62,974 nucleotides of DNA from contig JAJDDC010000049.1 in the NCBI GenBank assembly GCA_029260515.1, positions 1 through 62,974 of the forward strand, in the 5' to 3' direction. The notes below the pieces were generated by a model. The model saw only the letters and a program-made list of their open reading frames with translations, did no database searches and was not told where the DNA came from. Origin of the DNA: Phycisphaerales bacterium. GTDB lineage: Bacteria > Planctomycetota > Phycisphaerae > Phycisphaerales > UBA1924. Positions 3,508-60,975 of this stretch are shown one piece after another. A program made the translations under genes and the position numbers. Each line of letters begins with the position of its first letter. Positions within the stretch are counted from its first letter, which is position 1.

Positions 3508-3551
3508 CTCTGTGCGGCCGACGCACGAACGACCATCACAGGAGCAAGACG

Positions 3552-8375: not shown

Positions 8376-8493
8376 GAAGGTCGATGTCGTCGAGGCAGGG
8401 AGACGGTTAGCTATTGTCGTCTTCGGAGCGCTCGGGAGTTTCCTTTCGATTTTCATCGGGCTGGCTTTGGCCCGCACATTTATGGGGTTTTGA
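8365..8493 (+). CDS. small single-pass membrane protein (42 aa)
   Basis: 42 aa with one hydrophobic segment (residues 14-36, I-V-V-F-G-A-L-G...I-G-L-A-L-A) after a charged N-terminus. It overlaps the preceding gene by 11 bp and ends 1 bp before the nuclease gene. Function unknown. Confidence 0.5.
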   Translation: MPNEKVDVVEAGRRLAIVVFGALGSFLSIFIGLALARTFMGF

Positions 8494-8494
8494 T

Positions 8495-9826
8495 ATGACA
8501 CAGACAGCAGAAACCGCCGCGCCCGTCGAAGAGCGTGAGCGACCCGACTACGACCACCCGTTTCGGATGAGCTCGCTGCCGCGGCTGCGGTACTGTCCGG
8601 GGTCCTTCCATCTCGCGCAGGCCGCCGGCCCACGAGTAGACACGCAGAGTGATGCAGCGGCCGAGGGTACGCAACTGCACGAGGTCTGCGCCAGGCTCCT
8701 CGAGTGGGACGGAGATCAGCCGAGAGAGCTCTACGACATCGACGCGCTCACGAAGGAGGGCGAATCGCTCGACGGCTCGCAGTACTGGGCCGTGACTCAA
8801 TGCCTGACTTGGGTCGACGACGAGGTCGAGCGCGCGAACGAGAAGTACGGCGTCGACCTATTGCCGTACATGGTCGAGGATGAGACATCGATTTTCCGCG
8901 ACGGCTCGACGCAGCTTCTCTCCAGGGGCACGGTTGACTACGCACTGATCGGTCGAACGCACGACGGCAAGACCATCATCATGGTGGTCGACTGGAAGTT
9001 CGGCCGCTCGTCGCTCGACCCGCAGGCCGCCACCATGCAGTTGCTCGGTTACTCCCTCGGCCTCATGCAGGCGCTGTCCGTCGAGGATCGCGAGGCGTGT
9101 ACGGTACTCGCGTGGATCAATCAGCCACGATGTGACGGGCTGTTCTCCGGGGTCTTCACGGGCGCGCAGTACGACGAGATGCTAAAGGTCGTCGTCGACA
9201 CAGTCGAGGCCGCGCAAGCCGCCGACGCGGCAATCAACCCGTGCCTCGCCGCGTGCCGCTACTGCCCGGCTATCGGTCACTGCCAGGCGGCGCAGGAGAT
9301 CCACAAGATCATCCCCAAGACGGTCGACCCGGTCGTGCTGATGGACAACGCGGCGCTGGCGAAATGCAAGGAGGCGCACAAGATTGAACAGGTCGGCGCC
9401 GCTGCCCTCGACACGGTCATCAAGTCTCGAATGGCTTCGCGCGCGGTTATTCCCGGATGGAAGCCACAGCAACGAAAGGGAAAGACGGTATTTAGCGACA
9501 ACAAGCGAGCCGCGCATCTCCTCGGCGACAAGGTCGCGACCGTCGACATGCTTCGCACGGGCGGCATCAAGCTCGGCGACATTCCGCTGGAGATGTTTGT
9601 CGACAGCAAGGTGACGCTCACTTTTCCCTGGCTCTTGGAGCATTCGGATATTCCGGTCTCGAAAATCCGCGATATGTACGTCGCCGCTAAAACCTCGGAG
9701 GAGAACCCCGAGAAGACGACGAAGAAGCAAGCGCTCGCTGACTTCGAAAGCGACCTTGAAGAAGCACTCAGAACCAGCGCGCCGACAACGGCTATCGTGC
9801 GCGACAACACGACGAAGGCGGACTGA
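8495..9826 (+). CDS. PD-(D/E)XK nuclease, DUF2800/Cas4-RecB type
   Basis: 443 aa. Begins with the DUF2800 signature S-S-L-P-R-L-R-Y-C-P-G-S (26-37) and E-G-T-Q-L-H (58-62). The nuclease core is G-T-V-D-Y-A (D148), V-V-D-W-K-F-G (D166, K168) and a Q near 182. C250, C254, C257 and C263 form a cluster like the iron-sulphur cysteines of Cas4/AddB. Such nucleases resect DNA ends and are normally paired with an annealing protein; the next gene, overlapping by one base, is Bet/RecT. Together they make a two-component phage recombination system. The ATG at 8495 has only a weak ribosome site; coupling to the 42-aa gene is likely. Confidence 0.85.
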   Translation: MTQTAETAAPVEERERPDYDHPFRMSSLPRLRYCPGSFHLAQAAGPRVDTQSDAAAEGTQLHEVCARLLEWDGDQPRELYDIDALTKEGESLDGSQYWAVTQCLTWVDDEVERANEKYGVDLLPYMVEDETSIFRDGSTQLLSRGTVDYALIGRTHDGKTIIMVVDWKFGRSSLDPQAATMQLLGYSLGLMQALSVEDREACTVLAWINQPRCDGLFSGVFTGAQYDEMLKVVVDTVEAAQAADAAINPCLAACRYCPAIGHCQAAQEIHKIIPKTVDPVVLMDNAALAKCKEAHKIEQVGAAALDTVIKSRMASRAVIPGWKPQQRKGKTVFSDNKRAAHLLGDKVATVDMLRTGGIKLGDIPLEMFVDSKVTLTFPWLLEHSDIPVSKIRDMYVAAKTSEENPEKTTKKQALADFESDLEEALRTSAPTTAIVRDNTTKAD

Positions 9827-11097
9827 TGACCACGACAGAATTGACCCAAGCACCGGCGCCTTCCCTTGTCCGAGAGTTCGGCGAGAAGTACACGGTCGAC
9901 CCGAGGAAGGTTCTCGGGTTGCTCCGCGACACGGCCTTCAATCCCGGCAAGGACAAGCGAGGCGAGCCGAACCCGCCATTCACGGATAGCGAGGTCCAAG
10001 CCGCGCTGATCATCGCCAAGGCTCACGACCTGAATCCGTTCCTCAAGGAGATCTACCTCACTCGCACAAGGGGAAAGATCCTCACCATCGTTCCGATTGA
10101 CGGTTGGACGAACATTGCAAACCGCCACCCTCAGTACGACGGTTGCGAGTTCGAGGATATCGTCCACGAAAACATCGTCGTCGCGATCAAGTGCAAGGTC
10201 TACCGCAAGGACCGCAGCCACGCCACGGAGGTCACCGAGTACCTGAAAGAGTGTCACCGCGGAACGGGCCCGTGGAACGACTTCCCGGCGCGCATGCTGC
10301 GGCACAAGGCGTTCATTCAGGCTTGCCGGTACGCCTTCTCGCTCGGCGGCATTTACGACCCCGACGAAGCGGAGCGGATTGCGGATACTCAGATCGAAGC
10401 GCCGACCGCGATGACAATCGAAGGCTTGCCGAATCCTGGCGAGCGGGTGCTCCACGCGCCAGAGCTTGACGACGAGCCGAAGCTTAACAAGCTCACCCCG
10501 GAGGTCGTCGCAGAGTCGAGGCAACTCCTCGCCGACTCGAAGGCCGCAGTAGGGGAGAAGCCGGAGTCCATCGCCGACCTCGTCAAAGGCGCGGACCCTG
10601 GAGCCATCGCCCACACAACGCTAAGCGAAGAGGAACTCTCCGCCGCTTCCGCCAAGAAGCTCGCCGAAGAGAAGGAGGCGAGAGAGGCGCACAACAAGCG
10701 CCTTGACGAGCACCGCAAAAGCAGAGCTGATCGCGCAGCGAAAAGCCGAGCAGAGCAGGCCATGGCTACCGTGCCACCGGCTGGCGGCGGCGCGATGACA
10801 ACAGGCGCGAAGCCGGCAGAAGCCCCGGCCGCGAAACCCAAGCCCAAGAAGGCCGAGAACCCGACGATCCCAGCGATATTCCCCAAGCGCACGAAGAACC
10901 TCGAGGACATGCCTCGGGCCATGCTGGAGCTCTGGCTCGACAAGCTCGCGGAATGCTACAGGACGAACGGAAACGACCCAGTGGTGCGGTTGGCCGCTTT
11001 GTGCCCAAACGGCATCGGTTCACTCAGCGATAAGAACGCCGTCGCTATGGTCACCGTATTCGAGAGCGATGTGCGCAAGGTCGCGCTGCCGTTCTGA
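9826..11097 (+). CDS. bet: Bet/RecT-family single-strand annealing protein
   Basis: 423 aa. Residues 1-200 are a typical Bet domain: L-N-P-F-L-K-E-I-Y-L near 65-75, I-V-P-I-D-G-W, R-H-P-Q-Y-D-G, and the R-M-L-R-H-K-A-F-I-Q-A-C-R-Y helix near 165. It anneals complementary single strands made by the upstream nuclease. The C-terminal half is unusually long: a Lys/Glu/Ala-rich linker (220-320) and a folded tail (350-423) that may bind SSB or a partner. TGATG overlap with the nuclease gene ensures co-translation. Confidence 0.9.
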   Translation: MTTTELTQAPAPSLVREFGEKYTVDPRKVLGLLRDTAFNPGKDKRGEPNPPFTDSEVQAALIIAKAHDLNPFLKEIYLTRTRGKILTIVPIDGWTNIANRHPQYDGCEFEDIVHENIVVAIKCKVYRKDRSHATEVTEYLKECHRGTGPWNDFPARMLRHKAFIQACRYAFSLGGIYDPDEAERIADTQIEAPTAMTIEGLPNPGERVLHAPELDDEPKLNKLTPEVVAESRQLLADSKAAVGEKPESIADLVKGADPGAIAHTTLSEEELSAASAKKLAEEKEAREAHNKRLDEHRKSRADRAAKSRAEQAMATVPPAGGGAMTTGAKPAEAPAAKPKPKKAENPTIPAIFPKRTKNLEDMPRAMLELWLDKLAECYRTNGNDPVVRLAALCPNGIGSLSDKNAVAMVTVFESDVRKVALPF

Positions 11098-11105
11098 AAA
11101 AGGCC

Positions 11106-11134
11106 TTGACGAAACAACAAAGAGGAACAATGAT
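11106..11134 (+). promoter_or_regulatory. sigma70-like promoter of the Y RNA array
   Basis: TTGACG (11106-11111), 17-bp spacer, AATGAT (11129-11134). The expected start, 6-8 bases on, is 11141-11142, exactly the first base of the first Y RNA helix. Confidence 0.7.
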
Positions 11135-11141
11135 CTGGGCG

Positions 11142-11220
11142 CTGGTTGCGACGAGATGCTTTTCGGCGGTTATCTTCAATACGACAACCCGCCGAACGAT
11201 TACTTGCTCGCCTCGACTGG
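11142..11220 (+). ncRNA. Y RNA 1 (minimal, no tRNA-like module)
   Basis: Outer helix 11142-11155/11207-11220 (14 pairs, two mismatches). On its inner side lie ATGC (11156-11159) and CTTG (11203-11206), the junction found in all four RNAs. Inner helix CGGCGG/CCGCCG (11164-11169/11189-11194) closes a 19-nt loop that begins TTATCTT. The ends-paired layout with a conserved internal junction matches Y RNAs that bind Ro60 through the helix near their ends. No protein reading frame with a ribosome site lies here. Confidence 0.75.
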
Positions 11221-11231
11221 CCCCCACTCAT

Positions 11232-11373
11232 GGTGGAGTAGAGATGCCGAGATTGGTCGTTATCTATTTTTAATAGAGAGACCCTGGTTCGAATCCAGGC
11301 GCGAGTCGAAAGGCTCGCGTAGCTTAGTGGCAAAGCGCTTACTTCGACCGCTCACAACTTGCTCTTCTCTGCC
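11232..11373 (+). ncRNA. yrlA: Y RNA 2, YrlA type with permuted tRNA-like module
   Basis: Outer helix 11232-11243/11362-11373 (12 pairs, one U-U mismatch), junction ATGC...CTTG, inner helix GGTCG/CGACC (11255-11259/11345-11349) followed by TTATC. Inside is a tRNA core in permuted order. First comes the T arm CCTGG-TTCGAAT-CCAGG (11283-11299). Then an acceptor-like stem 11300-11307/11312-11319 is closed by a GAAA tetraloop. Then T8-A9 and the D arm GCTT-AGTGGCA-AAGC (11322-11336) follow. A small hairpin (11263-11277) precedes the T arm where a variable region would be; no clear anticodon-type stem. This is the topology of bacterial YrlA RNAs, which mimic tRNA. Confidence 0.9.
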
Positions 11374-11387
11374 TCCCTATAAGACTT

Positions 11388-11550
11388 GCAGTCGAGATGA
11401 ATCGTGGGCGTTACCATCCAAAAACCGGGGGTCGCAGGTTCGAGTCCTGCCCGAGAGGCCGAAGCGCGAGCTTGTGTAAGCCCTCTCGGTAGCTCAGTCG
11501 GTAGAGCACCGGTCAGTGTTGCCCTCGTACAACCTTGCTCGATTGCTTTT
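11388..11550 (+). ncRNA. yrlA: Y RNA 3, YrlA type with permuted tRNA-like module
   Basis: Outer helix GCAGTCGAG/CTCGATTGC (11388-11396/11538-11546) followed by TTTT, junction ATGA...CTTG, inner helix 11406-11414/11515-11524 region (GGGCG with TGCCC). tRNA core: anticodon-type stem ACCGG/CCGGT (11424-11428/11509-11513), variable GGGTC, T arm GCAGG-TTCGAGT-CCTGC (11434-11450). An 8-bp acceptor stem CCGAGAGG/CCTCTCGG (11451-11458/11482-11489) is closed by a 23-nt insert holding its own hairpin. Then T8-A9 and the D arm GCTC-AGTCGGTA-GAGC (11492-11507) follow. U8, A14, G15-C48, G18-G19, A21 and U54-U55-C56-A58 equivalents are all present, so a real tRNA-like elbow is expected. Confidence 0.92.
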
Positions 11551-11582
11551 GAAATCATCGTGCTCCACGATGTGTGTGTGTG

Positions 11583-11663
11583 AGGGCCAACCGGTATGCC
11601 CGTTGACGGTTATCTTTTGGTGATTTCCCCGTCGACTCCCTCACTTGACCGGCTGGCCCTTTT
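11583..11663 (+). ncRNA. Y RNA 4 (minimal, no tRNA-like module)
   Basis: Outer helix 11584-11595/11648-11659 (12 pairs, one A-C mismatch) followed by TTTT, junction ATGC...CTTG, inner helix GTTGACGG/CCGTCGAC (11602-11609/11629-11636) and a 19-nt loop starting TTATCTT. Its 3' strand CACTTGAC is the same as the 3' Ro60-binding strand of vertebrate Y RNAs as I remember them. It ends 33 bp before the Ro60 start codon, and the helix plus T run could also act as a terminator. Confidence 0.85.
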
Positions 11664-11695
11664 GATTCCCGCTGGCTCGACTTCAGGAGATCGAG

Positions 11696-13351
11696 ATGCA
11701 AGACCTCGGAAAGACCTTCAACCCCAAAGCCACCCCGCAGTCCAAGCCCATCCCCGGGCGCGAGGAAGATCAGTCCGTCAACAACGCCGGCGGCTACGTC
11801 TTCGAGGTGAGCGACTGGCAACGCCTCGAGCGCTTCCTCATCCTCGGCACCGAGGGCGGGACGTATTACTCGTCTGAGCCGGAGCTCACGTACGAGAACT
11901 CGGCGACACTCCTGCGATGCATCGCCAAGGACGAGCAAGAGGTTCTTCGAATCCTGCACTCATTCTCGGTCGAAGGGCGCACGCCACGGCAGAACGTTAC
12001 CCTCTTCTCGCTCGCGATGCTCGCCGCTCACGGTAGCAACGATGTCGGCTTTCGGAACACGATGGTTGCGAGCTTCCGGTCGGTCGTCCGCACCGGCTAC
12101 CAGCTCTTCATCTTCTGCAGGTACCTCAAGTCGCAGCGCGGGTTCAGTCGCTTCCACCGCCGACTCATCTCGCAGTGGTACACCGCGGCCGACCCGTCGT
12201 GGCTCGCCTACCAGATCGCCAAGTACCAGAGTCGAGAGGGCTGGAGCCACAAGGACGTCATCCTTCTGTCCCGCCCGAAGACCGAGAACCCGGTCATCAA
12301 CAAGCTCATCCGCTACGCCATCGGCAAGTGGGACGAGAAGTCTCCGCTGCCTGCGGTCCTCGCCGGCATGGAGTCGATCAAGCCGGAGGAGACGAAGCCT
12401 CTTCGGGTCGCCGCGGTCGTTCGGGAGAGCGGGCTGACGCACGAGATGGTCCCGAGTTACGCCAAGGCTTTTCCTGCTGTGTGGGAAGCGCTGGCGGACA
12501 AGATGCCGCTCGGCGCGTTGTTCCGCAACCTCGGCAACCTGTCGCACAAGGAGGTTCTGGCCCCGAGCAAGATCAAGCGCATTGCCGAAGTTGCCGGTCG
12601 ACTCAGTGACGAGGCCGCGATCAAGAAGGCTCGCGTTCACCCCGTCCAGGTACTCTCTGCAATCAAGGTCTACGGGCAGGGTCGCGGCGTGCGCGGGTCG
12701 CTGACCTGGGCGGTGGACGCCAAGATCTGCGGGGCGCTCGAAGACGCCTTCGACAAGTCGTTCAAGTCTATCGAGCCGACCGGGAAGCGGTTCCTCGTGG
12801 CGCTCGACGTCTCCGGCTCGATGTCTGCGCCAGTCGCAGGGTTGCCCGGTATCTCCTGCGCCGAAGGCTCCGCGGCGATGGCGCTGTCCTTCGTATACAC
12901 CGAGGAGAACGTCAGCGTTGTGTCCTTCTCTTGCGGCGGTCGGAGAGAGTACGGCTGGATGCACCGCAACGTCGCCAATCCGAACGACGGCCTCGAGCCC
13001 ATGCCGCTACATCGCAGGACCTCATTCACGCAAGCGATGGAAGAGGCCAGCCGGCGGAACTTCGGCGGAACGGACTGCGCGCTACCGATGCGCTACGCCA
13101 CGAAGCACGAGATCCCCGTTGACGTGTTCGTGGTTCTCACGGACTCCGAGACGTGGCACGGAACCATCCACCCATCACAGGCGCTCGAGGAGTACCGCAA
13201 CAAGTTCAACAAGAACGCCAAGCTCGTCGTGGTTGCGATGACGGCGAACAAGTTCTCGATTGCGGATCCGAAGGACCCCGGAATGCTCGATGTCGTTGGA
13301 TTCGATGCGAACGTGCCCAAAATAATCCAGAGCTTCGCGGCGAGCGAATGA
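11696..13351 (+). CDS. rsr: Ro60/Rsr ortholog (TROVE domain plus vWA)
   Basis: 551 aa, full length for the family. Residues 20-350 form the helical TROVE ring (Y-V-F-E-V-S-D-W-x3-E-R-F-L-I-L-G-T-E-G-G-T-Y-Y is the usual opening; T-R-x-N-V-T-L-F-like segments follow). Residues 360-551 are a von Willebrand A domain with an intact metal site: D371-x-S373-x-S375, T459 in G-G-T-D-C, D483 in L-T-D. Ro60 binds Y RNAs on the outer ring surface and single-stranded RNA ends in the central hole. In bacteria the Y RNA tethers Ro60 to polynucleotide phosphorylase and helps RNA decay or stress survival. ATG 11696 has AGGAG 7 bases upstream. The four Y RNAs lie directly in front on the same strand. Confidence 0.96.
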   Translation: MQDLGKTFNPKATPQSKPIPGREEDQSVNNAGGYVFEVSDWQRLERFLILGTEGGTYYSSEPELTYENSATLLRCIAKDEQEVLRILHSFSVEGRTPRQNVTLFSLAMLAAHGSNDVGFRNTMVASFRSVVRTGYQLFIFCRYLKSQRGFSRFHRRLISQWYTAADPSWLAYQIAKYQSREGWSHKDVILLSRPKTENPVINKLIRYAIGKWDEKSPLPAVLAGMESIKPEETKPLRVAAVVRESGLTHEMVPSYAKAFPAVWEALADKMPLGALFRNLGNLSHKEVLAPSKIKRIAEVAGRLSDEAAIKKARVHPVQVLSAIKVYGQGRGVRGSLTWAVDAKICGALEDAFDKSFKSIEPTGKRFLVALDVSGSMSAPVAGLPGISCAEGSAAMALSFVYTEENVSVVSFSCGGRREYGWMHRNVANPNDGLEPMPLHRRTSFTQAMEEASRRNFGGTDCALPMRYATKHEIPVDVFVVLTDSETWHGTIHPSQALEEYRNKFNKNAKLVVVAMTANKFSIADPKDPGMLDVVGFDANVPKIIQSFAASE

Positions 13352-50842: not shown

Positions 50843-51408
50843 AGTGAGATCCTCAAGCCTACGAGAAAAGCGAGTTGCCCCGAGAGGTCGATGCGCTCTC
50901 CGGGGTCGACGACAACCATCTGACAGTGGATCTCCTCGTAGCGCGGGTTTTCCTTCAGCTCGATGTCGCGGTAAAGAGCTCGGCCCTCGACGAAGACCGC
51001 GAGAGGGCAGCCGAGAAAATCACCAAGGTAGAACTCGGCGCCAGCCCGCGCGTCCCACCCGAGGCCCACCTCCTCAGCCTCGAGCCCCGTTGCGTGGATC
51101 ACGGACGGTCCAGAGCCGATGTAGACACTAAGGAATTCGACCGACCCGAATCGGCGGCGGACGAGCAGCATCGGCGTGACTGTCGTCTCCATAACGCCGT
51201 CGTCGAGGAACGCTGTCGTCGCGTCGAGTGCAAAGCCGGGGTCGACGCTATCGGTCGACAGGTACGTGCCGGCGCGGAGGTTTGTTACCTCGATACCGTC
51301 TGACACGGCGCCGACCGATTTCGAGATGTAGCGGTCGTATCCGTTACAGCTCAGCAGCACGCAGAGCGCGCCAATAACCAACAGAAGAATGATCCGCGAG
51401 TAGCTCAC
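50839..51408 (-). CDS. predicted outer-membrane-type lipoprotein (189 aa)
   Basis: GTG start; signal peptide (I-I-L-L-L-V-I-G-A-L) and lipobox L-L-S-C (Cys21). The body has alternating hydrophobic strands (V-E-F-L-S-V-Y-I-G-S-G-P, L-G-W-D-A-R-A-G-A-E-F-Y-L-G) and ends in L-A-F-L-V-G-L-R-I-S-L, like a small beta-barrel. Could alter the host surface to exclude other phages. Overlaps the lipase gene by 65 bp. Confidence 0.5.
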   Translation of the reverse strand: MSYSRIILLLVIGALCVLLSCNGYDRYISKSVGAVSDGIEVTNLRAGTYLSTDSVDPGFALDATTAFLDDGVMETTVTPMLLVRRRFGSVEFLSVYIGSGPSVIHATGLEAEEVGLGWDARAGAEFYLGDFLGCPLAVFVEGRALYRDIELKENPRYEEIHCQMVVVDPGERIDLSGQLAFLVGLRISL

Positions 51409-52057
51409 GAGCTCTCTTTCCTCTCCACATATCCTTCATGCGGTCGAACTTCTCGAACCACCACCCTGGATTGAAAACGACGCGCCCGTCCGCCGCGATA
51501 TACGTCTGCGGGTGAGCATGCCAAAAATTTATCTTAGGCGTTCTCGGGATGGCGTCGTTCTGCTTCACATATCGCCTCGTCTCGCGAACGCCGTGATTGA
51601 AAATCCCAGCGAAGCGAAGGTTGCCAACTCTCGGCCCGCCGAAGGTGACACAGTGCTCCGCTGAAAGCTCGAGAGCCGCAAGCTGCGCGACCGCGCCGCC
51701 GAGGGAGTGCCCAGTGACGATCAGTCGCTCCGTGGTCTTGACTTCTTTGGCCACGAGTTCGCGGATCTTGCTGTAGTGAGCAAGAAATCCTGCGTGGACG
51801 CGCGCCTTCTTGTAGGGCTCGAGGTGAACCTTCCAAGCTTTCATGTCGCGAAGGAAATCCGTAGCGCTCGACGTACCGCGAAACGCCACGACAACCGTGT
51901 CGCCGTATTCGTAGACGACCGCCTCGGCGTCTTCGTTGGCGATCTCCGCTCGGACGACGAAGTCGCTCGACTCGAACTCCTCGAGAAGCTCGGCGTCGTA
52001 GGGCGCCCCGTAGGACATGGTCGACAGCATCGCGAGCTGGGAATCTGAGACCTTCAT
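51344..52057 (-). CDS. class 3 lipase
   Basis: 237 aa alpha/beta hydrolase. Nucleophile elbow T-G-H-S-L-G-G (Ser118), T-F-G-G-P-R-V-G-N (138-146), Asp168 in Q-N-D-A-I-P and His223 in A-D-H-S-S-V-G-Y-W complete the triad; F-R-G-T (59-62) is the oxyanion segment. No signal peptide. Such enzymes cleave acylglycerols or phospholipids. In the absence of a recognisable endolysin it may act in lysis, or it may digest host lipid stores. It has its own promoter. Confidence 0.88.
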   Translation of the reverse strand: MKVSDSQLAMLSTMSYGAPYDAELLEEFESSDFVVRAEIANEDAEAVVYEYGDTVVVAFRGTSSATDFLRDMKAWKVHLEPYKKARVHAGFLAHYSKIRELVAKEVKTTERLIVTGHSLGGAVAQLAALELSAEHCVTFGGPRVGNLRFAGIFNHGVRETRRYVKQNDAIPRTPKINFWHAHPQTYIAADGRVVFNPGWWFEKFDRMKDMWRGKRARELLADHSSVGYWRALRAAEL

Positions 52058-55010: not shown

Positions 55011-55318
55011 CACTCCTCCAGCGCGGCGCGTGCTTGCTTGGCTACTTCAGCAGCACCCCACCGGCCTTCTACTATCCACTCGAGCGCACCATCCAGCCGC
55101 GCCACGCGGGCTTGGAGCTTGGCGATAGTCTTCAGCCCTGACCGCGCGCCGGGGACGACCGCAACGGTGCGCGAGTGGAGCGCATCCTTCACCTCCGCCG
55201 CGATGACGTCGAGGCGTTCCATCATCTCATCCCAGAGGTCGCCTTCATCGCAGTGAAAGCCCATCTCGATGATGTCGATCACTTCCTTCAAGCGCTCGTG
55301 CAAGGGCTTGTCAGTCAC
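55010..55318 (-). CDS. hypothetical helical protein (102 aa)
   Basis: GTG start at 55318 overlapping the upstream TGA (GTGA). Helical, with L-K-E-V-I-D-I-I-E-M and a C-terminal A-K-L-Q-A-R-V-A-R-L-D. Not recognised. Confidence 0.55.
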   Translation of the reverse strand: MTDKPLHERLKEVIDIIEMGFHCDEGDLWDEMMERLDVIAAEVKDALHSRTVAVVPGARSGLKTIAKLQARVARLDGALEWIVEGRWGAAEVAKQARAALEE

Positions 55319-56172
55319 GACACCACTCGGCACACGTCGGCCAGCGTACGCACAGTGCGGACCGGCTCGCGCTCCTCGCGGCCGATTTCACAAAGCTCCA
55401 GGATGAGCGGGACTATTAAATGCTCGGCAGCGTAGGCAGCAGCGCGGGCAGCGTCGGCAGCAGCGTAGGCAGCGTCGGCAACAGCGCGGGCAGCGTCGGC
55501 AGCAGCGTAGGCAGCGCGGGCATCGTAGGCAGCAGCGCGGGCAGCGTCGGCAGCAGCGTCGGCAGCGCGGGCATCGCGGGCAGCGTAGGCAGTGTCGGCA
55601 GCAGCGTCGGCAGCGCGGGCATCGCGGGCAGCGTAGGCAGTGTCGGCAGCAGCGTCGGCAGCGCGGGCATCGCGGGCAGCGTAGGCAGCAGCGTCGGCAG
55701 CGCGGGCATCGCGGGCAGCGCTGGCGGCAGCTCGGACAGCAGCGTTGGCAGCAGCGTTGGCAGCAGCGTAATCTTCCGGCCCATTAATCGTCAGCGACTC
55801 CAACGACTCAGCCTCGGTCGTCAACCCAACCGACCGCAACGCGGCGGGAACCCACACGGTGACAGCGACACGCACGATCACGACCAATCGGCGATTCGTC
55901 CACTCTATCCCCTGATTCGTTCCGTACGGTTCCATCAGGATCGGAGCGATGACCCGCTCGCGATCGGCGTCACTCGGCAATGAATCATTAACTCTGATGC
56001 ACAGTTCACGGATCACGGGGTCAACGCACTCGGCCTTGCCTGTCCATCGCTCGTTGCCGCTCATGTGGTTGAGTGCAGACATCCAGCACGCGCCCTTTCC
56101 GGGTGCGCCTTCGCCTTTTACCAGTCGTGGGAACTCAGGGATGTTCATGTCGATCTCCTTGGGTTTAGTCAT
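55315..56172 (-). CDS. hypothetical protein with expanded Ala-rich repeats (285 aa)
   Basis: The N-terminal 130 residues (E-C-V-D-P-V-I-R-E-L-C-I-R-V-N-D) follow a conserved phage pattern of unknown role. From about 135 to 255 the protein is Ala/Asp/Arg repeats. In DNA a 48-bp unit, coding for the 16-residue D-A-A-A-D-T-A-Y-A-A-R-D-A-R-A-A, occurs about two and a half times in tandem with further partial copies. Start taken at ATG 56172 (GAGGAGGGACG); ATG 56148 behind AAGGAG is also good. Confidence 0.65.
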   Translation of the reverse strand: MTKPKEIDMNIPEFPRLVKGEGAPGKGACWMSALNHMSGNERWTGKAECVDPVIRELCIRVNDSLPSDADRERVIAPILMEPYGTNQGIEWTNRRLVVIVRVAVTVWVPAALRSVGLTTEAESLESLTINGPEDYAAANAAANAAVRAAASAARDARAADAAAYAARDARAADAAADTAYAARDARAADAAADTAYAARDARAADAAADAARAAAYDARAAYAAADAARAVADAAYAAADAARAAAYAAEHLIVPLILELCEIGREEREPVRTVRTLADVCRVVS

Positions 56173-58352: not shown

Positions 58353-58583
58353 TCAAAATATCGGCACATCGTCAATCACCTCGTGAACTTTCCGCAGCGC
58401 CTCGGACGCTCGATCCCGTACCGATTGATCCCACTCGGTCCACTGCGTATTGACGTGCCGGCCATCGAATAGCTGGCAGGAGTCAACGAGCACGCCACGG
58501 ATTTCTTCGAGCAGTATCAAGACCTTGCCCTCACGCACCACTGCGTCGTCGAGTGCTTGGCGTAGTTTGATTTCTTCGGTCAC
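58353..58583 (-). CDS. hypothetical protein (76 aa)
   Basis: GTG start at 58583 overlapping the XF1762-family stop (GTGA). Helical with a short strand (K-V-L-I-L-L-E-E-I). The extension to 58682 is antisense-like and not used. Confidence 0.5.
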   Translation of the reverse strand: MTEEIKLRQALDDAVVREGKVLILLEEIRGVLVDSCQLFDGRHVNTQWTEWDQSVRDRASEALRKVHEVIDDVPIF

Positions 58584-59047
58584 GCCTCCTCCCCCGCGCT
58601 GTCTGCGGCGTCGGTCTTCTCCCATCGGAACTTTCCTTGCGTCGGGTGCTTGTCCACTCGCGGCCGATCTTCTCGCGACCACGAGCCGCCCTTGGTTTCA
58701 GCGGTGACCTTCCAGCCAGCACCGCGCAAGCTCGCGCCACCCTCCTCGGGAAGCGTGTACGTCACCATGCGCCGATACCCCATCGCTCGCGCAGCTCGCC
58801 ACGCCGCAGCGTAGAGAGTGGAGCAGGCGTTCCGCGTGCCGTCCGTGCAGCATCGCAGAACTTCAGCGGTCCAGCCGTTGTCGAGAATCCGTGAGAGCGG
58901 ACGCCCGACGATGACCACGCCAATGACGTCACCGCCAACCGCACAGCCGATGGAAAACTTATGCCCTCGCACGGCACCGTGGTGCCGATGGTTCCGCTCC
59001 ACAAATCGATTCGCCTCTCTGAGAGTCATGGGCACTATCTCCAGCAT
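58580..59047 (-). CDS. XF1762-family protein (155 aa)
   Basis: L-R-E-A-N-R-F-V-E-R-N-H-R-H-H, G-H-K-F-S-I-G, I-V-G-R-P-L-S-R, E-V-L-R-C-C-T-D-G-T-R-N-A-C-S and Y-T-L-P-E-E-G-G-A-S-L-R follow this phage/prophage family closely. The fold is thought to be acetyltransferase-like; substrate unknown. Starts at ATG 59047 just after the upstream TAG; the extension to 59377 is antisense-like. Confidence 0.8.
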   Translation of the reverse strand: MLEIVPMTLREANRFVERNHRHHGAVRGHKFSIGCAVGGDVIGVVIVGRPLSRILDNGWTAEVLRCCTDGTRNACSTLYAAAWRAARAMGYRRMVTYTLPEEGGASLRGAGWKVTAETKGGSWSREDRPRVDKHPTQGKFRWEKTDAADSAGEEA

Positions 59048-59049
59048 AT

Positions 59050-59472
59050 CTACGCGCTGTCTGCGGCGTCGGTTGTGTCGATTTTGAGGGCCTTGGCGAC
59101 AGCGAGTACGACAGTGGTCATAAATCCATTGCTGGAGTTTTCGCCTACGCGGTGCTCGTTGACATTCCACGGCGAGAAGACCACTCGATAGACACCCCTT
59201 GCAACGCACTCTGGCTTCTCCCAGACTCGAATAACGTGCAGTGCATGAGTCGGCTCCATCGCTGCAAGCAGATCCATACAAGCCGCCGGATCGTCGAAGA
59301 AGTCGCGGGGCTGTGTTGACTCGCCGAAGTCTGTCCACCACGTCCTTTGGTCGCTGACGTAGCCACCTGTGGGGCATTTGTGCCAGCAGTCGAGATCGTC
59401 CTGCTCGAATTCCAGCGGCTCCAGCCGCTCCGCGATCTCGCGGCAGATGCGGCGCTTGGTTTCGGTGTTCAT
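59050..59472 (-). CDS. hypothetical protein (140 aa)
   Basis: Helical start (I-C-R-E-I-A-E-R-L-E-P), W-H-K-C and W-W-T-D-F aromatic patches, and a C-terminal helix. Its final T-D-A-A-D-S-A is shared with the XF1762-family protein through a 21-bp direct repeat (59053-59073 and 58595-58615). Not recognised. Confidence 0.55.
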   Translation of the reverse strand: MNTETKRRICREIAERLEPLEFEQDDLDCWHKCPTGGYVSDQRTWWTDFGESTQPRDFFDDPAACMDLLAAMEPTHALHVIRVWEKPECVARGVYRVVFSPWNVNEHRVGENSSNGFMTTVVLAVAKALKIDTTDAADSA

Positions 59473-60170: not shown

Positions 60171-60286
60171 TTCCTCTTTTTGTCCGCCAGGGAACTCAGG
60201 AGCCTCATCCGTATCGCAACGTGAATCGCGTCACGCACGGCGTCCTCAGGTGCGATTTTTCCGATCAGGTCCTGTGAATCACTCAT
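60167..60286 (-). CDS. 39-aa hypothetical protein
   Basis: M-S-D-S-Q-D-L then two short helices ending in L-A-D-K-K-R-K. CAGGAGACCATC precedes the ATG; it overlaps the exonuclease stop (ATGA) and the next start (GTGA), which supports a real gene. Confidence 0.5.
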   Translation of the reverse strand: MSDSQDLIGKIAPEDAVRDAIHVAIRMRLLSSLADKKRK

Positions 60287-60894
60287 GATGGTCTCCTGAA
60301 GATGTTGAGCGAGGACTGTAGCTCCTTTGCTATCTGGACGTTCGCGCGAACGTCTACGAGCGCATCGTGCGCTCCATCGATACAAATCCCGAGGTGCTCA
60401 CACAGGGTGGCGAGCTTCATGTCTTTTGGCTGCAGGTTTTTGCCCAGACCGAAGAAAAACCACTGCGCGAGCTGGCAGGTATCCAGGACTCGGAAGTACC
60501 CGGGCAGGAACTCGTCGGCGTCACGGAAGAACTTCTGAATGAACGGCCCGTCGAAACTCGCGGCGTTGTGCCCGGCCATGCGTGCGACGTAATACGGGCG
60601 ACCTCGCTTACTGATGAGCTCCACCGTGGCGTGTCGCGAGAGGAACTGAGAGAATCTCGCGCGAGCGACGGCAGGCTCGACAGCCTCAGTCTTCCAAGCC
60701 TCGGGCTCAAACGAATTCACCTCCAAGGCCTCTGGGCTGCATTCCTTGACGTCGAAGTGAATCTTCACTTCGAACTGCTCGATCTCCTGGAATGTCAGGG
60801 TGTCGACCGCGATGGCGGCGATCTGGATGATTGGGTGTTTGCCGAGCTCGACGCCACCCGTCTCGAGGTCGAAAAAAACCGTCTTGTCAGTCAT
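60283..60894 (-). CDS. DnaQ-like 3'-5' exonuclease (203 aa)
   Basis: DEDDh family: motif I F-F-D-L-E-T (D9, E11), motif II G-H-N-A-A-S-F-D near 111-118, motif III A-H-D-A-L-V-D-V (H then D five residues on) near 178-184. It would trim single-stranded DNA or RNA ends. ATG 60894 has AAAAGGAG upstream. In this phage it could work with the recombination pair or, speculatively, with the Ro60 particle. Confidence 0.85.
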   Translation of the reverse strand: MTDKTVFFDLETGGVELGKHPIIQIAAIAVDTLTFQEIEQFEVKIHFDVKECSPEALEVNSFEPEAWKTEAVEPAVARARFSQFLSRHATVELISKRGRPYYVARMAGHNAASFDGPFIQKFFRDADEFLPGYFRVLDTCQLAQWFFFGLGKNLQPKDMKLATLCEHLGICIDGAHDALVDVRANVQIAKELQSSLNIFRRPS

Positions 60895-60975
60895 CGGCCT
60901 TCTCCTTTTGTCTCGGAGTGAAGTCGAAAGGTTACGAAGTGCGCTTGGGCGGCCCATTTCGGGGAGACTGTCATT

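Follow-up and report, generated by a model that had tools for sequence, protein, structure and literature searches.

In bacteria, the outer helix of a Y RNA is reported to bind Ro60 and its tRNA-like domain to bind PNPase, directing PNPase to structured RNA (PMC8394870, PMC7790460); the Y RNA whose tRNA-like domain binds PNPase is YrlA (PMC8394870), and a bacterial Y RNA is described as superposing on tRNA in circularly permuted order (PMC11472068). The primary Ro60 site is given as a bulged C, C9, with His187 essential to the contact (PMC4030889), and Ro60 with the H187S substitution is reported to lose Y RNA (PMC11277228). Among phages, Y RNAs have been found in mycobacteriophages, as stated by PMC12282133 citing Chen et al. 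2014, and the same paper proposes Y RNA identity for three strongly transcribed regions close to an Rsr homologue in Listeria phage CKA15 (PMC12282133, 2025). Here we analyse a Ro60 locus on a 62,974-nucleotide contig (JAJDDC010000049.1, the window throughout) of the Phycisphaerales assembly GCA_029260515.1, where four Y RNA-like units in tandem (array 11141–11663, plus strand) stand directly 5' of a full-length Ro60 gene (11696–13351, plus strand). Phage Ro60 with Y RNAs and tandem arrays are already known; what is new here appears, from the sequences compared, to be a rewired contact between the protein and its RNAs.

All four units follow one order of parts: outer helix, ATGM, inner helix, GTTAYC, effector stretch, second strand of the inner helix, [AC]CTTG and second strand of the outer helix. 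Each was found where an initial annotation had placed four RNAs of the same architecture before Ro60. In Y1 (11141–11219; ATGC at 11156, GTTATC at 11169, ACTTG ending at 11206) and Y4 (11581–11663; ATGC at 11596, GTTATC at 11609, CACTTG ending at 11647), both on the plus strand, the effector is a short hairpin; the outer helix of Y1 was placed in a slightly different register by the search for GTTAYC and two helices described below. In Y2 (11233–11375) and Y3 (11386–11548), also on the plus strand, it is a T arm, then an acceptor-like helix, then a D arm, that is, a circularly permuted tRNA-like module. By sequence and model alignment, the module of Y2 comprises the T arm CCTGG TTCGAAT CCAGG (11283–11299), a GAAA-closed acceptor-like hairpin (11300–11319) and the D arm GCTTAGTGGCAAAGC (11322–11336), and that of Y3 a T arm (11434–11450), an acceptor-like helix with a long loop (11451–11489) and the D arm GCTCAGTCGGTAGAGC (11492–11507). 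The module is a tRNA opened at the anticodon, as in bacterial YrlA; the initial annotation had seen two units of each of two kinds and had missed the module. Y2 and Y3 lie next to Ro60 and enclose their permuted tRNA module in an outer and an inner helix, which places them in the YrlA type in the wider sense.

A covariance model (R2) built from 36 tRNA-type units of relatives, with the window excluded, was run over both strands of the whole window and matched Y2 (11236–11369) at 80.2 bits (expect value (E) 1.1e-16), Y3 (11389–11545) at 79.8 bits (E 1.4e-16) and Y4 at 16.8 bits (E 0.056). The hairpin-type model from relatives (R1) matched Y1 at 19.0 bits (E 0.0036) and the inner part only of Y4 at 14.9 bits (E 0.026) when searched in 2.8 kb; over the whole window these matches stood at E 0.08 and E 0.58, and a minus-strand stretch reached 19.1 bits. 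Y4 is supported by its fold, which was far better than that of shuffled sequences (z-score -4.33, 0 of 200 shuffles equally stable); Y1 (-2.66) and Y2 (-2.20) folded moderately better and Y3, cut to 150 nucleotides, weakly so (-1.44). The search with bacterial Y RNA models that the initial annotation had proposed gave a divided answer: Rfam YrlA (RF02553), with a gathering score of 69, reached only 39.6 bits in Y3 (E 6.8e-7) and 28.4 bits in Y2 (E 0.0012), YrlB (RF02565) matched Y1 at noise level (17.4 bits, E 3.2, gathering score 97) and Y4 not at all, and no match in the Rfam scan of the window reached a gathering score. YrlA matches were below the gathering score in 9/9 phage Ro60 loci searched as well (best per locus 26.7–46.8 bits), and because Rfam matches stay below it we collected Ro60 neighbourhoods from relatives. 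A descriptor of ATG...TTG plus outer helix had four matches in the 0.6-kb array versus eight across the remaining plus strand, with five on the minus strand and one to nine per shuffled whole window (20 shuffles), and GTTAYC by itself was unspecific in the window (35 matches on both strands versus 21 expected). Cross-pairing of outer arms among the four units did not separate Y1–Y3, which have CGAG/CTC in common.

The collected neighbourhoods came from phages (18 annotated records), viral contigs and genomes. An ATG...[TC]TG descriptor gave no signal above the reverse strand at these other loci, because the junction differs in relatives; GTTAYC plus two helices was the descriptor that worked across them, with 268 of 379 sites upstream of Ro60 scoring at least 30, against 6/59 on the other strand, 17/121 inside Ro60 genes and 50/367 with shuffled flanks. 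Compensatory change in relatives, a check set by the initial annotation, was present in 16 of 18 pairs in an alignment of 41 hairpin units (A2; 45 picked) and 27 of 31 pairs in one of 36 tRNA-type units (A3; 40 picked), both excluding the window; these counts lean towards structure, as units had been chosen by helix score and the tRNA-type ones also by T-arm and D-arm pattern. The acceptor helix of A3 is therefore the fair test, the other helices having steered the choice of sequences, and 97.1% of it was paired, both partners having changed in 6/6 pairs. Searched as a pattern, the permuted tRNA module occurred at 69 of 185 loci on the Ro60 strand and at 0 of 185 on the opposite strand, a count that includes the window once, keeps near-identical loci and contains some neighbouring true tRNAs. 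In 681 kb of sequence from 98 viral and phage loci, the matches listed at E 0.01 (209 for R2 and 131 for R1, among them units on which the models were trained) lay without exception on the Ro60 strand.

These loci also bear on the question of number. A single array of four had been put forward as new, and this is not supported: 22 of 165 other Ro60 loci have four or more two-helix units (2/18 phage records, 14/67 viral contigs, 6/75 genomes and 0/5 distant relatives), as counted at score 28 in up to 1.2 kb upstream at loci with at least 1 kb. The count keeps near-identical loci, such as L028 and L106, as well as chance hits. Mycobacterium prophage prophiGD43A-5 (L008) has six units by the two-helix measure, the models match eleven non-overlapping stretches upstream of Ro60 in viral contig L029, and 357 records of a phage collection encode Ro60 relatives. 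In phages and bacteria alike, many Ro60 loci thus hold more than one Y RNA-like unit, the handle being conserved and the module on it exchangeable, and one ring may therefore use several adaptors.

The same survey gave several observations on annotation and gene context. A deposited tRNA-Thr (L008:2247-2325) and a deposited tRNA-Asn (L010:1338-1404) overlap YrlA-type Y RNAs found by the model (L008:2253-2384 and L010:1336-1467) and are Y RNAs mistaken for tRNA genes. In Gordonia phages GMA2, Sixama and Forza (L006, L007 and L018), Ro60 heads large clusters of tRNA and transfer-messenger RNA genes that hold YrlA-type matches, and a Pistol ribozyme scores above its gathering score between tRNA genes of GMA2 (L006:5491-5547). 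Weak matches below the gathering score to the nematode family RF01656 (ceN72-3_ceN74-2), which we take to comprise stem-bulge, Y-like RNAs, lie over phage Y RNAs at L003:2837-2964 (E 0.015) and L004:2745-2879 (E 0.11).

The Ro60 of the window has 551 amino acids, carries TROVE (206 bits, cut-off 27.7) and vWA_Ro60 (118.8 bits, cut-off 23) domains, aligns over nearly its full length with Deinococcus radiodurans Rsr (2nvo, E 2e-99) and Xenopus Ro60 (1yvp, E 8e-98), and has the metal-site residues D371, S373, S375, T459 and D483 that the initial annotation had given for a full-length Ro60. It is 36–48% identical to its clade, identity did not exceed 48% in the best 120 listed out of 7,886 protein matches, and a quick tree with many open forks placed it near the clade base with P0067 and L002. 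At positions 150, 151, 190 and 193 it reads F, S, L and R versus W, G, R and H in most relatives; F150 aligns with Trp144, L190 with Arg184 and R193 with His187. Position 193 was His in 161 of 177 clade Ro60s (near-identical ones kept), Lys in 12, and Ser, Gly and Arg once each, the Arg being that of the window; the remaining one had Ala at a locus not alignable there. Among the 119 nearest proteins it was His in 110, Lys in eight and Arg in one, P0067, which has Ala at 190, is 44% identical to the window Ro60 and possibly shares these features by common descent; a search of viral contigs did not find its locus. The host assembly (94% complete) yielded no second Ro60, and the two same-genus genomes searched (one of them only 60% complete) yielded none, which speaks against the suggestion that the phage replaces a host particle; the particle would therefore add a new function. 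Distant Rsr (23–29% identity) with a nearby AUGC-type YrlA occurs in some host relatives (L180, L182–L184 and L187), and the pair was absent from the two same-genus genomes searched.

The RNA junction is changed as well. In relatives the outer helix typically ends in ...GGGC, the next bases are CGRA and the facing strand reads ACUU-GCCC; this junction agrees with the conserved GGUCCGA reported for vertebrate Y RNAs (PMC11277228), and in our reading of the pairing the first C of CGRA probably corresponds to the bulged C9. A CCGR-class junction was present in 254 of 268 units by a loose pattern, and CG stood immediately 3' of the helix in 110 of 132 model-aligned tRNA-type units. The window has ...GAG-AUGM...CUUG-CUC in Y1–Y3 and ...GGU-AUGC...CUUG-ACC in Y4, so the bulged C is absent in 4/4 units, and the canonical pair of His187 and bulged C is replaced by R193 and AUGM; the initial annotation had seen the ATGM...CTTG junction and overlooked both losses. 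These junctions resemble those of the distant Rsr clade, yet the units retain the GTTAYC of their own clade. Because junction and contact residues have both changed, protein and RNA probably changed together, as a private pair.

We compared residues and junctions across loci that had an R2 match (E 1e-9 in the first two batches, 1e-7 in the last two) and an aligned K176 and R180. The batches were the window with 47 of 98 viral and phage loci (L002–L099), then 88/88, 63/63 and 57/76 loci, with near-duplicates and contigs already seen left out, and the counts leave out the Rsr clade. Among the 136 loci, loss of the bulged C was seen in 5/5 with positions 150 and 193 both changed, 3/14 with one changed and 5/117 with neither, the bulged nucleotide being hard to read in several non-C rows of the last group. 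In a first set of 82 loci, not thinned by identity and left after 2 of 84 were dropped for unaligned K176 or R180, the C was lost in 5/11 without His versus 3/71 with His, and in 3/9 versus 3/71 when the window and L008, which had prompted the idea, were removed. A new set of 54 loci, thinned to below 90% identity to any earlier Ro60, gave 3/6 versus 2/48, and two of these three loci are related to L008. Fisher tests, which ignore relatedness, returned p = 0.0008 for the first set, 0.017 without the window and L008, 0.007 for the new set and 3.6e-6 for both residues.

The base was also tabulated by the residues at 150 and 193: R/K and F/K went with U (4/4 loci), W/K with C (6/6), W/G with A (2/2, related) and W/S with C once and A once. 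The idea about residue 150 was formed on the same 136 loci, and only L113, L146 and L239, double-changed loci named before their RNAs were seen, are out of sample; the base is U in the one unit of L113 and in 3/4 units of L239, of which two are near-copies, and U was also read at L146 from a weak match of uncertain register. Hairpin units with U occur at L290 (3/3), L021 (2/2) and L131 (1/1). The apparent joint change at the His187 position and at the bulged C offers a natural experiment on Y RNA recognition by Ro60, in which native pairs that differ in their junctions allow crosswise comparison with no design needed.

The explanation that we prefer, to which we give about an even chance, is that the phage Ro60 uses the four units of Y RNA architecture as interchangeable adaptors to host RNA-processing enzymes, likely PNPase, with a rewired private contact. 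The units would be transcribed and processed, their end (outer) helices are predicted to bind the Ro60 ring, and the two tRNA-like and two hairpin units would serve one phage Ro60 as exchangeable adaptors that tether it to those enzymes, with whatever effect on infection may follow. The altered contact, AUGM in place of the bulged C of CCGR in all four units together with Phe, Leu and Arg at the Trp144, Arg184 and His187 positions, would keep the particle private. A bolder form of this proposal, which we offer only tentatively, is a residue code at 144 and 187 that reads the bulged base (W/H for C, R or F with K for U) and of which the phage may have rewritten both sides (F, L and R with AUGM), giving a private particle whose four exchangeable adaptors would ignore Y RNAs of the host and of rival phages. 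The region with the Ro-like gene can be missing in L2 mycobacteriophages, as reported in PMC12714340, so phage Ro60 need not be essential.

Several results weigh against this adaptor proposal. By model alone, Y1, the weakest unit, is inseparable from noise; as its R1 match is at noise level over the whole window, its support comes from where it lies in the array and from its motifs and fold. No PNPase family match was found among the window proteins searched, so a Ro60–Y RNA–PNPase (RYPER) type of tether is proposed here by precedent (PMC8394870, PMC7790460). The residue–base association was noticed on part of the data used for its test, and tree-based tests found few independent contrasts: four pairs for both residues (3.8 in the same direction, 0.0 opposite, median p 0.125) and seven for His alone (4.4 and 4.1 in the same direction, 0.0 opposite, p 0.125). 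The informative pairs agree in direction, but with so few of them significance is not reached. An AUGC junction is combined with a retained His in the distant Rsr clade (L182, L183, L184 and L187), so AUG can occur without Arg; one of the four L239 units retains C, and C is also kept with W/K (six loci), W/R (one) and W/T (one) Ro60s. Taken together, the comparisons suggest protein–RNA co-change well, short of proof.

The main rival is a decoy role against tRNA-cutting defences, in which tRNA-like modules held by Ro60 would bait tRNA-cleaving host nucleases, phage and host tRNAs would survive and extra units would raise the dose. T, acceptor and D arms in two of the four units and the standing of several phage Ro60 loci among tRNA genes agree with this, and YrlA has been proposed as a possible competitive inhibitor of an anticodon nuclease (PMC7790460); two units have no tRNA module, however, and no tRNA gene was found in the window. 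It also counts against a decoy that the modules have the Ro60 helices in place of an anticodon loop, the usual cleavage site of such nucleases. Unlikely as we judge a decoy to be, it deserves a little more credence than a role in RNA maturation or storage, in which Y RNAs would gate a Ro60 ring handling misfolded rRNA or phage RNA and the modules would be regulators instead of tethers; in Deinococcus, Y RNA reportedly keeps Rsr away from the maturation of 23S rRNA (PMC4030889), but two effector types and tRNA mimicry would then go unexplained.

Drift is an improbable account: a Ro60 with Arg at the His187 position would no longer bind Y RNA, and array and contact site would be decaying. The deviation of R193, L190, F150 and S151 from strongly conserved residues is what drift predicts, yet all four units keep their paired helices, GTTAYC and a common ATGM...CTTG junction, the protein is intact and its metal site complete, R193 recurs (with A190) in P0067 at 44% identity, where shared descent is possible, and double-changed Ro60s elsewhere mostly have U junctions. 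A reading of the array as tRNA debris or coding sequence instead of Y RNA is already contradicted, and we give it almost no weight: cmscan joins the Y2 D arm and the Y3 T arm as a split tRNA below threshold (22.1 bits, E 0.11) and short open reading frames overlap the array, but ARAGORN reported no tRNA, the R2 matches are full-length at E 1e-16, and Pfam matched none of the five frames that overlap the array or its edges.

The window is a single contig of a 3.83-Mb assembly, and its proteins match phage-type families (terminase, portal, head and baseplate), partly weakly. Upstream of the array, on the same strand, are genes for a phage exonuclease (DUF2800/PDDEXK, 8414–9826) and a RecT/Bet-like annealing protein (9826–11097); the 598 bases between the RecT end at 11097 and the Ro60 start at 11696 contain all four units. 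A predicted sigma-70-like promoter (TTGACG, 17 nucleotides, AATGAT; 11106–11134, plus strand) lies directly 5' of Y1, one match versus 0.2 expected by shuffling, and no terminator-like site was found between 10900 and 12000, where 1.3 were expected. For the early phage operon of the initial annotation, the evidence amounts to a plus-strand array between RecT and Ro60 and this one promoter match. Elsewhere in the window, a 12-base repeat (in one register, TGTCACGGTCGA) stands in tandem at both contig ends (33–136 and 62862–62965), and the genome may be that of a circular or terminally redundant phage. A 26-base leader with a ribosome-site-like AGGAG before ATG is repeated on the plus strand at 3532, 4095, 4771 and 5403, and GC-rich 9- and 12-base repeats are densely packed at 55433–55762 within a minus-strand open reading frame (55315–56172). 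Also on the minus strand are a Mom-like DNA modification protein (58580–59377, PHROG 1384, E 2.9e-39), a class 3 lipase domain (51344–52057) and an RNase T-type exonuclease domain (60283–60957).

Set beside known systems, the locus resembles bacterial YrlA (RF02553) with Rsr, including the RYPER of Salmonella and Deinococcus, with which it shares the outer Ro60 helix, the AUGC...ACUUG of the Rfam consensus, the permuted T-acceptor-D module and a gene beside Ro60. It differs in its scores below the gathering threshold (39.6 and 28.4 versus 69), in GTTAYC, which is absent from six Rsr-clade units, in a Ro60 of another clade, and in the lack of an RtcB match among the window proteins searched. 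YrlB (RF02565), a short hairpin beside YrlA, is like the hairpin units in form, although Y1 reached only 17.4 bits and Y4 had no match. The vertebrate system has the Ro60 domains in common with the window (E 8e-98 to Xenopus), and its conserved GGUCCGA (PMC11277228) is matched by the junction of the window's relatives, whereas the window itself is without the bulged C and His187. Listeria phage CKA15, as described in PMC12282133, likewise has several non-coding RNAs upstream of an Rsr-like gene, and these are backed by expression data. Gordonia phage Cashline and Mycobacterium prophiGD43A-5 share the Ro60 clade (about 40% identity), GTTAYC and tandem units before Ro60, and differ at the junction, which is [GGGC][CGRA] or [GAGC][AGGA] in these phages and AUGM in the window.

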